From: Chloroflexota bacterium | Lineage (GTDB): Bacteria; Chloroflexota; Dehalococcoidia; UBA2979 | NCBI GenBank assembly: GCA_009840945.1 | Contig: VXMU01000122.1 | Location: forward strand, 9,330 to 56,346 | Direction of reading: 5' to 3' | Length of the DNA stretch: 47,017 bases | Part shown: positions 18,852 to 23,030 of the stretch, piece by piece | How positions within the stretch are numbered: the first letter of the stretch is position 1 | How the letters are laid out: each line of letters begins with the position of its first letter | Translations under genes and position numbers: made by a program | Notes under the pieces: generated by a model | Databases searched by the model: none | What the model saw: only the letters and a program-made list of their open reading frames with translations | What the model was told of the DNA's origin: nothing

Positions 18852-20759
18852 ATGACGCGGCCGCGCCACCCCTTCCTCGACGCGCTCGACCGCGGCGTTG
18901 TGCTGGCCGACGGCGCGACCGGCACCGAGCTGCTCTCGCGCGGCTGGACGGGCCTGCCCGCTGCCGCAGTGCTCGATGCGCGGGACCTCGTGCGCGAGCT
19001 GCACGAGGACTACATCGAGGCCGGTGCGGACCTCATCCTCACCGACAGCTTCGCCGCCAACCCCATCCACCTCGAGAACGCAGGCCTCGCAGACCGCACG
19101 CGCGACGTCAACTTCAACGCCGCCCGCGTGGCGCGCGACGCGCGCGAGATCCGCGGGGTCGACGTGCTGGTCGGCGGTTCGGTCGGCGCCATCGGCCGCA
19201 GGTTCGCGGTCGGCACGGTCGCGCCTGAGCAGGCGTACGACGCGTTCGCCGAGCAGATCGGCGCACTGGTCGAAGGCGGCGTCGACCTGCTCGTGTTCGA
19301 GACCTTCCTCTCGCTGGCCGAGGCGCGCATCGCGCTTTCGGCAGCGCGGGCAATCACCGACATGCCGGTGGTCGTCGGGCTCAACTTCGTCTCTGCGCTC
19401 ACGACCTCGGCCGGCGAGGCATTCCCCGAGGTGCTCGCGGAACTCACCGCCGGAGGCGCCGACGTGGTCGGCGTCAACTGTGGCGTCGGCCCGCGCGCCG
19501 CCCTCGACGTGCTCGAGCAGGTCGCGGCCGCCGACCCCTCGGCGCGGCTGTTTGTCGCGCCGAACGCGGGGCTGCCGCGCATCACCGGCGGGCGGCCGTT
19601 CTATCCCTCGTCGCCCGAGTACTTCGTCGACTTCGCGCTGCGTGCGAAGGACCTCGGCGCGGCGATCGTCGGCGGGTGCTGCGGCACCACGCCCGCGCAC
19701 ACGCGCGCGATGCGCGCCGCACTCGACTCCGCCGAGCGCATGCCCGCGACCGTCGAGGTGCTCTCGCGCGGGCCCGCGCTCGCCGTCAGCGACACGCGGG
19801 GTGGCTTCGATGTCACCGCCGCGCCGCTCGCCGAGGAGCCGCCGGAGCCCGATGAGCCCTCGCGCCTGCGCGACAAGCTCGCCGCCGGGCAGTACGCGGT
19901 CTCGGTGGAGATCGACCCCCCGCGCGGGCACAACCCGCGCAAGGCCGTCGAGGGCGCCCGGTTGCTCCGCGACGCGGGCGCGGACGCGATCAACATCGGC
20001 GACTCGCCGATGGCGCGCGTGCGCATGAGCGCGCTCGCGCTCGCGCTCCGCATCGAGCGCGAGGTGGGGATCGAGACGATCATTCACCAGACCACGCGCG
20101 ACCGGAACCTGATGGCGCTGCAGTCCGACCTGCTGGGCGCGCACTCGCTCGGCATCCGCAACGTGATCGCGCTGACCGGCGACCCGCTGCCCGAGGCGTC
20201 GGAGTCCTCGGCCGTGTGGGACGTCGACTCCATCGGCTTCGTGCGCATCCTCAAGCGGCTCAACGAGGGCGTCGACTTCGCCGGTAACTCGCTGGGCCGT
20301 CCCACGGACTTCTTTGTCGCCTGCGCGGCCAACCCCACCGCCGACGACATCGACATCGAGCTGCGGCGCGTGCGCGCGAAGCTCGACGAGGGCGGCGACA
20401 TGCTGATGACGCAGCCCGTCTACGACCTCGCCACGCTCTCCGAGTTCTTCGAGCGCCTGGGACCGGTGGACGTGCCGGTGCTGCTCGGCATCCTGCCGCT
20501 GATGTCGTCGCGGCACACGGAGTTCATCCACAACGAGCTCGCCGGCGTGGTGGTCCCCGACGCCGTGCGCGCGCGCATGCGCGAGGCGGGCGACGCCGGA
20601 GCGGCGGCCGGCCTGGAGATCGCGTACGAGCAGATCGAGGAGACGCGCGACTTCGAATGGGTGTCGGGCATCTATATCATGCCGTCGTTCGGCCGCTACG
20701 AGGTGGCGGCGGAGCTGATTGAGCGCGTACGCGCTACCGCGCCGGTGACGACGCGGTAG
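18852..20759 (+). CDS. Bifunctional homocysteine S-methyltransferase / methylenetetrahydrofolate reductase
   Basis: A 635-residue fusion. Residues about 1-300 form a homocysteine methyltransferase domain: DGATGTEL near the start and zinc ligands Cys210 (GVNCG), Cys276 and Cys277 (GGCCGTTPAH). Residues about 335-635 form a MTHFR domain: VSVEIDPPRGHNP, the NIGDSPMARVRMS segment, HQTTRDRN, ALTGDPLP and TQPVYD. The architecture matches Bacillus YitJ and couples reduction of methylene-THF with methylation of homocysteine to methionine. ATG at 18852 follows GGAGCAGCC. No SAM riboswitch is visible upstream. Confidence 0.93.
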   Translation: MTRPRHPFLDALDRGVVLADGATGTELLSRGWTGLPAAAVLDARDLVRELHEDYIEAGADLILTDSFAANPIHLENAGLADRTRDVNFNAARVARDAREIRGVDVLVGGSVGAIGRRFAVGTVAPEQAYDAFAEQIGALVEGGVDLLVFETFLSLAEARIALSAARAITDMPVVVGLNFVSALTTSAGEAFPEVLAELTAGGADVVGVNCGVGPRAALDVLEQVAAADPSARLFVAPNAGLPRITGGRPFYPSSPEYFVDFALRAKDLGAAIVGGCCGTTPAHTRAMRAALDSAERMPATVEVLSRGPALAVSDTRGGFDVTAAPLAEEPPEPDEPSRLRDKLAAGQYAVSVEIDPPRGHNPRKAVEGARLLRDAGADAINIGDSPMARVRMSALALALRIEREVGIETIIHQTTRDRNLMALQSDLLGAHSLGIRNVIALTGDPLPEASESSAVWDVDSIGFVRILKRLNEGVDFAGNSLGRPTDFFVACAANPTADDIDIELRRVRAKLDEGGDMLMTQPVYDLATLSEFFERLGPVDVPVLLGILPLMSSRHTEFIHNELAGVVVPDAVRARMREAGDAGAAAGLEIAYEQIEETRDFEWVSGIYIMPSFGRYEVAAELIERVRATAPVTTR

Positions 20760-21505: not shown

Positions 21506-21979
21506 GTGACGACGATCCTGACCGTGGGTCACGGCAACCTGTCGCAGGACGCGCTTCTCCGCAACCTGCTCGACGCGGGCGTCGAGCGCGTCGTCGACGT
21601 GCGGTCGAGGCCGTATAGCCGCTGGCACCCGCACTTCAACCGTCGCCGCATCGCCGAGGCGCTGACCGAGGCGGGCATCGCGTACGAGTGGGAGCCCGCC
21701 CTCGGCGGCAAGCCCGAGGGCCCCGCGCTCCACATGGCCGGCGGCGAGCCGGACTACGCGCTGATCGCCCAACACCCGCCGTTCCTCGACGCCCTCGACC
21801 GCCTCGTCGCCACCTCGGCTGAGGCCAGCACGGCGATCATGTGCGCCGAGGGTGACCCGGCGGGATGCCACCGCACCGTGCTCATCGTGCCGCTGCTCGT
21901 CGAGCGTGGCGTGACCGTGCGGCACCTGCTCAAGGACGGCTCCGTGGTCGACCACGCGGCGATGGCGCGGCTGCTCTAG
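21506..21979 (+). CDS. DUF488 domain-containing protein
   Basis: A 157-residue DUF488 protein. Family features are the N-terminal ILTVGHGNLS, VVDVRSRPYSRWHPHFN, ALGGKPEGP and the C-terminal IMCAEGDPAGCHRTVL with conserved Cys and His. The fold and activity of the family are not established. GTG start at 21506 was chosen because it directly precedes TTILTVGH; GAGGGGAC is upstream. The stop overlaps the stop of the convergent ion channel gene by 4 bp. Confidence 0.85.
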   Translation: MTTILTVGHGNLSQDALLRNLLDAGVERVVDVRSRPYSRWHPHFNRRRIAEALTEAGIAYEWEPALGGKPEGPALHMAGGEPDYALIAQHPPFLDALDRLVATSAEASTAIMCAEGDPAGCHRTVLIVPLLVERGVTVRHLLKDGSVVDHAAMARLL

Positions 21980-22821
21980 CCGCCCGAGACTTCGCCCCCG
22001 GCGGGCGAGCGGCCACCCTCGTTCTGCACCTCCACGAGCCGCCGTTCGAGGCGGGTGAGTGACTCGCGCGCGGCCCTGAGCTCCGCGATCACCTCGTCGG
22101 CCGTGGTCGCGGTCTCGAGCTGGCGCAGGCGCTCCTGCTTCGCCTCGTCGAGGTTGTTGATGACGACGGCGATGAAGAGGTTGATGGTCACGAACGAGCC
22201 GAGCACGACGAAGCTGAGGAAGTACACCCAGGCGAACGGGTGCAGGTCCATCGCCACGTACATGATGTCCGTCCAGTCCTCGAGCGTGACGACGCGGAAC
22301 AGCGAGAGCAGCGAGATGCCGAGGTTGTTCCAGTGCTCCGGGTCGTGCTCGTGGAAGAGGTGGAAGCCGAGGATCGCGTAGATGTACGTCAGCAGGCTCA
22401 TGACGGCCACGATGTGCAGCATCCCCGGGATCGACCGCACCAGCGTGCTCACGATCAGGCGCAGCTCCGGCAGCGCGGAGATCAGTCGCAGCACTCGCAA
22501 GAGGCGCGCCATGCGCGCGACCACCGCGAACGGCCCCACCGCCGGGACCAACGAGAGCACGATGATCGAGAAGTCGAAGACGTTCCAGCCGTCCTTGAAG
22601 TAGCGGTCCGAGCGTGGCGCCAGCGCCAGCATCTTCATCGCCGCTTCCACGATGAAGACCGCCAGCGTCACGTTATGCGCCAGCTCGAACCAGTGGAGGA
22701 ACCGCTCCCCGATCCCCTCGACGGTCTCCAGTCCCAGCACCACCGCGTTGGCGACGATCAGCGCGATGATGAAGTACTCGAACGGCCTCGATCCGCTGAT
22801 CCGTCCCGCAAGCTCCCGCAT
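21976..22821 (-). CDS. Voltage-gated cation channel, bacterial NaChBac/NavAb family
   Basis: A 281-residue single-repeat six-helix channel that should form tetramers. S1 is about 14-31, S2 46-66, S3 79-95. S4 carries four arginines every third residue (Arg103, 106, 109, 112). The pore loop has the filter TLEDWTD (179-185), then S6 about 198-222 ending INNL. The C-terminal 225-270 is a polar helical segment that probably forms the tetramerising coiled coil. Sodium channels of this family have TLESW-type filters; the acidic residues at 182 and 185 resemble positions that make engineered CavAb calcium-selective. ATG with GGGGGA upstream. Confidence 0.9.
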   Translation of the reverse strand: MRELAGRISGSRPFEYFIIALIVANAVVLGLETVEGIGERFLHWFELAHNVTLAVFIVEAAMKMLALAPRSDRYFKDGWNVFDFSIIVLSLVPAVGPFAVVARMARLLRVLRLISALPELRLIVSTLVRSIPGMLHIVAVMSLLTYIYAILGFHLFHEHDPEHWNNLGISLLSLFRVVTLEDWTDIMYVAMDLHPFAWVYFLSFVVLGSFVTINLFIAVVINNLDEAKQERLRQLETATTADEVIAELRAARESLTRLERRLVEVQNEGGRSPAGGEVSGG

Positions 22822-22944: not shown

Positions 22945-23030
22945 CTGGTTCCCTCTCCGCCCGCGGGGGGAGAGGGCCAGGGTGAGGGGGGTCTGCGGGG
23001 TGCGAACACCCATCGAGGAGCCGCTGGGCG
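22945..23030. repeat. Dispersed intergenic repeat, copy D (inverted)
   Basis: CCCTCTCC at about 22952 pairs with GGAGAGGG, followed by CCAGGGTGAGGGGGGTCTGC, the reverse complement of copies A and B. It occupies most of the 216-bp gap between the channel gene start and the epimerase stop and could act as a terminator for the epimerase. Confidence 0.75.

Follow-up and report, generated by a model that had tools for sequence, protein, structure and literature searches.

A Chloroflexota voltage-gated channel gene with the selectivity filter of NavPp and a sister channel with that of CavMr

Ancestor-like bacterial channels and their filters

The one-domain prokaryotic voltage-gated cation channels (BacNavs) measured so far are homotetramers. 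A set of ancestor-like members, the AnclNavs, was described by Shimomura et al. (2020), who measured two of them, NavPp and CavMr (PMC7041947). In NavPp, which comes from Plesiocystis pacifica, the filter is TLEDWTD; this channel prefers Na+ while letting some Ca2+ pass (PCa/PNa 0.308), and external Ca2+ blocks it with low affinity, whereas CavMr from Meiothermus ruber (ZP_04038264), with the filter TLEGWVD, is highly Ca2+-selective (PMC7041947). In both backbones, high Ca2+ selectivity is set chiefly by the glycine at filter position 4. The CavMr filter placed in NavPp gave a PCa/PNa of 215, and the NavPp filter placed in CavMr brought the ratio down to 13.8, which is not Na+-selective, and discrimination between K+ and Cs+ was lost (PMC7041947). 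The two backbones in which TLEDWTD has been measured thus gave opposite preferences, and selectivity is not decided by the filter letters alone. The predicted ancestral BacNav filter is TLED(or S)WTD (PMC7041947). Channels with similar filters from H. elongata and T. turnerae gave no current (PMC7041947), so that function is not to be assumed for a newly found relative such as the one described here.

A channel gene in a Chloroflexota genome

The window, a stretch of 47,017 nucleotides from a Chloroflexota bacterium, holds an intact open reading frame at 22821..21976 on the minus strand, with an ATG start, 281 codons and no internal stop. Its product has one Ion_trans domain (PF00520, residues 12-230, E 4e-52) and six transmembrane helices within about 280 residues. 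As in other BacNavs, arginines occupy every third position of S4 (R103, R106, R109 and R112, none of which varies in an alignment of 11 members), and a re-entrant pore loop carries a T-x-E/D-x-W filter rather than TVGYG, here TLEDWTD between the P1 and P2 helices. The original prediction of a bacterial voltage-gated channel with four S4 arginines is thus confirmed, and so is the placing of TLEDWTD at residues 179-185, coded exactly by 22287..22267. Its acidic residues Asp182 and Asp185 are also present, but they lie one and four residues after Glu181, not two and five. The features, all on the minus strand, are as follows.

21976..22821, minus strand: gene for a BacNav voltage-gated cation channel, probably of AnclNav type, 281 aa (open reading frame, PF00520, AlphaFold2 model, PDB fold match)
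22726..22788, minus strand: S1 helix, residues 12-32 (AlphaFold2/DSSP)
22624..22698, minus strand: S2 helix, residues 42-66, with E59 and K63 conserved (AlphaFold2/DSSP)
22552..22590, minus strand: S3 helix, residues 78-90, WNVFDF motif, with W79 and D83 invariant (AlphaFold2/DSSP)
22474..22536, minus strand: S4 voltage-sensor helix, residues 96-116, with R103/R106/R109/R112 (alignment and AlphaFold2)
22354..22470, minus strand: S4-S5 linker and S5, residues 118-156 (AlphaFold2/DSSP)
22288..22323, minus strand: P1 pore helix, residues 167-178 (AlphaFold2/DSSP)
22267..22287, minus strand: selectivity filter T179-L-E-D-W-T-D185 (codons 179-185; same letters as the NavPp filter)
22108..22233, minus strand: S6 helix and neck, residues 197-238, with the G208 hinge (AlphaFold2; comparison with NaChBac, PDB 6vwx)
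22015..22101, minus strand: C-terminal helix, residues 241-269, a possible coiled coil for tetramer assembly (AlphaFold2/DSSP)

An AlphaFold2 model, built from 40 sequences with plasmid-record rows left out, has a mean pLDDT of 86 and contains S1-S4, S5, P1, the filter, P2, S6 and the C-terminal helix, the last of which may tetramerise by analogy with other BacNavs. Its best fold match in the PDB is the engineered CavAb (Foldseek, E 9e-14; PDB 5klb), followed by NavAb (PDB 5yua). This is a match of fold and not of ion preference, because three filter residues separate CavAb from NavAb; identity to them is about 35%, and their filters are TLDDWSD and TLESWSM, respectively. By sequence, the protein matches NaChBac, NavAb and 4bgn, and no prokaryotic channel nearer than these three is found among the PDB matches listed. 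NaChBac from Bacillus halodurans (PDB 6vwx) shares the fold, the S4 arginines and the glycine hinge in S6, with 42% identity over the part aligned in the fold match, but its filter is TLESWAS. In S6, Ser209 stands at the position of NaChBac T220, where NavPp has Thr232, and Ala218 stands at the position of NaChBac G229. Since the G229A mutation slows inactivation of NaChBac, one may guess that inactivation of the window channel is slow as well.

Two copies from the same genus, compared over 270 codons by the NG86 method, gave dN 0.052/dS 0.219 and dN 0.062/dS 0.327, i.e. dN/dS of about 0.24 and 0.19, and the gene is therefore kept by purifying selection. Together with the intact frame and the Ion_trans match, this rules out a chance reading frame. 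The stop codon overlaps the 3' end of a convergent DUF488 gene by 4 bases.

Distribution and phylogeny of the filter

Two censuses were made of the filter in related channels. Among the best 80 relatives, taken from contigs with one genome per species, 57 have TLEDWTD, and they come from Nitrospirota, Nitrospinota, Acidobacteriota, Pseudomonadota and Chloroflexota. Because the best 80 are biased towards the query, a second sample of 299 Pseudomonadota genomes was evenly drawn; 118 had a match at E<=0.001, and the filter could be read in 100 channel genes. The EDWTD block is present in 52 of these (26 TLEDWTD and 26 TFEDWTD), the NavAb-type TLESWSM in 29 and Gly4 in 14. Both censuses thus overturn the earlier view that a natural channel of this type is rare: TLEDWTD is already known, has been measured in NavPp, and is the commonest filter among the relatives. 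Across all 203 filters read, 111 of 112 channels with Asp at position 4 (D4), from several phyla, keep EDWTD even where identity falls to 33%, and four positive S4 charges are present in every one of the 112, although these rows are not 112 independent events because some genomes are near-identical. In contrast, channels with Gly at this position (G4) vary freely, with 19 filter versions among 55. A plasmid-borne relative from Streptomyces (L037) has an odd pore for the family, with the filter TLDGIGD and no tryptophan.

A phylogeny of the filter within the family had been suggested as a check on the original prediction, and a tree of 98 relatives was built without the filter columns. The four sequences of the window genus are sister, with support 99/98, to an uncultured Dehalococcoidia channel (L043), which shows 63% identity to the window protein and carries TLEGWVD, the exact filter of CavMr. 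The two sister filters differ at D4/G4 and T6/V6. Gly4 is found in most other Chloroflexota. Both filter types occur among the near kin of the window channel, and the tree requires no fewer than six changes between D4 and G4. In another tree, with NaChBac and NavMs as outgroup, neither of the sampled NavAb-like channels (NavMs, L038) falls within the part that holds the window gene; NaChBac, NavMs and a plasmid channel with TLESWSM fall outside the 101 other rows, on a root split that was imposed, weakly supported (71) and joined by long branches. Membership of the AnclNav group consequently rests mainly on the filter, which is acidic, TLESW-like and identical to that of NavPp, and on the near kin, which suggest that the window gene is a further member of this ancestor-like kind.

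Ion selectivity

On balance, we think that the gene encodes a homotetrameric, depolarisation-activated channel of AnclNav type that passes Na+ best and some Ca2+, with a partial block by external Ca2+ in the millimolar range. Its product would be one subunit of the tetramer in this SAR202-type Chloroflexota bacterium; upon depolarisation, the four S4 arginines would move and the S6 gate would open, and ions would cross the TLEDWTD filter with the preference and the partial block seen in NavPp, providing voltage-triggered Na+ entry. The preference for Na+ is argued for by the filter, which agrees letter for letter with that of NavPp (ZP_01909854), another one-domain, six-helix BacNav likened here through its published filter. 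It is further argued for by the behaviour of NavPp with engineered filters, since NavPp carrying TLEDWSD or TLEDWAD did not become a Ca2+ channel and remained blocked by Ca2+ (PMC7041947). The AnclNav-type reading is also in line with the place of the gene in the tree among D4 and G4 channels and with the frozen EDWTD block.

Two observations count against a Na+ preference, namely the behaviour of TLEDWTD in the CavMr backbone and the CavMr filter of the nearest relative outside the genus. They support a different and less probable reading, although one to be taken seriously, in which a preference for Ca2+ comes from the backbone and is no more than relaxed by D4, giving a Na+/Ca2+ channel that is non-selective or weakly prefers Ca2+, with a PCa/PNa of about 1-20. 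The NaChBac mutants LEDWAS and LEDWAD, described as non-selective (PMC8002053), are also in its favour. However, the only native channel with TLEDWTD that has been measured prefers Na+. In addition, the pore of CavMr is built differently between filter and S6: by residue numbering, filter position 7 and the G229 site of S6 are 51 residues apart in CavMr, about 18 more than in the window protein (33), and 34 apart in NaChBac. CavMr shares the TLExWxD pattern and probably the AnclNav group with the window protein, and has G4 and V6 in place of D4 and T6.

A strongly Ca2+-selective channel, made so by three acidic filter residues as in CavAb, is improbable. The TLEDWSD mutant of NavAb and the TLEDWAD mutant of NaChBac are listed as Ca2+-selective, and CavAb proper is TLDDWSD, in which Glu is replaced by Asp as well (PMC7041947). 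Nevertheless, the likeness to engineered NavAb filters put forward in the original prediction does not carry over to an AnclNav backbone: the same two filters gave no Ca2+ permeation in NavPp, where T6A even deepened the block (PMC7041947), and the window filter has neither the Gly4 of CavMr, decisive for high Ca2+ selectivity, nor the TLDDW(S/A)D of CavAb, its positions 3 and 4 being Glu and Asp. Of the proposed Ca2+ permeability, some is plausible and strong selectivity is disfavoured by the NavPp data; a minor or mixed Ca2+ component is possible, and likelier than a strongly selective current. The least probable reading, a decaying or silent gene with no working channel in its host, could draw on the patchy distribution of the gene (found in two of the three other genomes of the genus, thus three of four with the window's own, and in none of the 20 genomes searched elsewhere in the family) and on the lack of a promoter-like site in a search that covers high-GC promoters poorly, but it is contradicted by the intact frame, a dN/dS of about 0.2 and the retention of all pore and S4 residues.

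Host and neighbourhood

Two further genomes of the genus carry close copies (88-92%), as does Chloroflexi isolate SB0661_bin_43 (L039); other near relatives come from SAR202 and Dehalococcoidia, and the window is therefore assigned to a SAR202-type Chloroflexota. A second BacNav paralogue occurs in some SAR202-type genomes (L119, L120, L121); it shows about 45% identity to the window protein, has the filter TLDGWS(D/E) and retains just two of the four S4 arginines. The host genome, 92.5% complete, has no second copy of the channel, the only other Ion_trans match being a TVGYGD potassium channel, and it contains two loci of the Na/Ca-exchanger family. No flagellin gene was found in it, so a role in motility is unlikely.

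No partner gene travels with the channel among 83 flanks; instead, lineage-specific housekeeping neighbours recur, such as TrpE-like (17 loci), FtcD-like (13) and NifS-like (11) genes, named by eye from sequence. Two large flank clusters were left out of this comparison as they combined reading frames that overlap in high-GC DNA. At 22968-22988 (genome C115:32297-32317), upstream of the channel, GGGAGAGGGCCAGGGTGAGGG is a dispersed repeat with 41 copies in the genome at <=1 mismatch, against 0 for a reversed control. Elsewhere in the window, 18852-20759 on the plus strand encodes a fused homocysteine S-methyltransferase / methylenetetrahydrofolate reductase, a known fusion.

Tandem channel genes in Pseudomonadota

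Four of the 299 sampled Pseudomonadota genomes have two adjacent BacNav genes on the same strand (L231:265-2046, L232:2902-4608, L233:53-1743 and L234:4091-5809), with gaps of 3, 24, -4 and 3 bases. The order is constant, the first gene having the filter TTEGWP(T/S) and the second T(M/S)EGWPD. As judged from the genes, such a pair would seem to encode a heteromeric voltage-gated channel with two kinds of subunit. Searches of papers gave no description of tandem BacNav pairs, and they may outweigh the TLEDWTD finding in worth.

Implications

The finding of TLEDWTD in one more channel matters little in itself, and what deserves further attention is the sister pair, together with the frozen EDWTD block. 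The filters of the window channel and L043 differ at exactly the two positions whose swap in the laboratory made NavPp a Ca2+ channel. Tentatively, the two may form a natural Na+/Ca2+ selectivity pair; in that case, switching between D4 and G4 could be a way in which channels have repeatedly moved between Na+ and Ca2+ entry in nature. Such a close D4/G4 pair would offer a clean natural test of a bacterial channel shifting between sodium and calcium.
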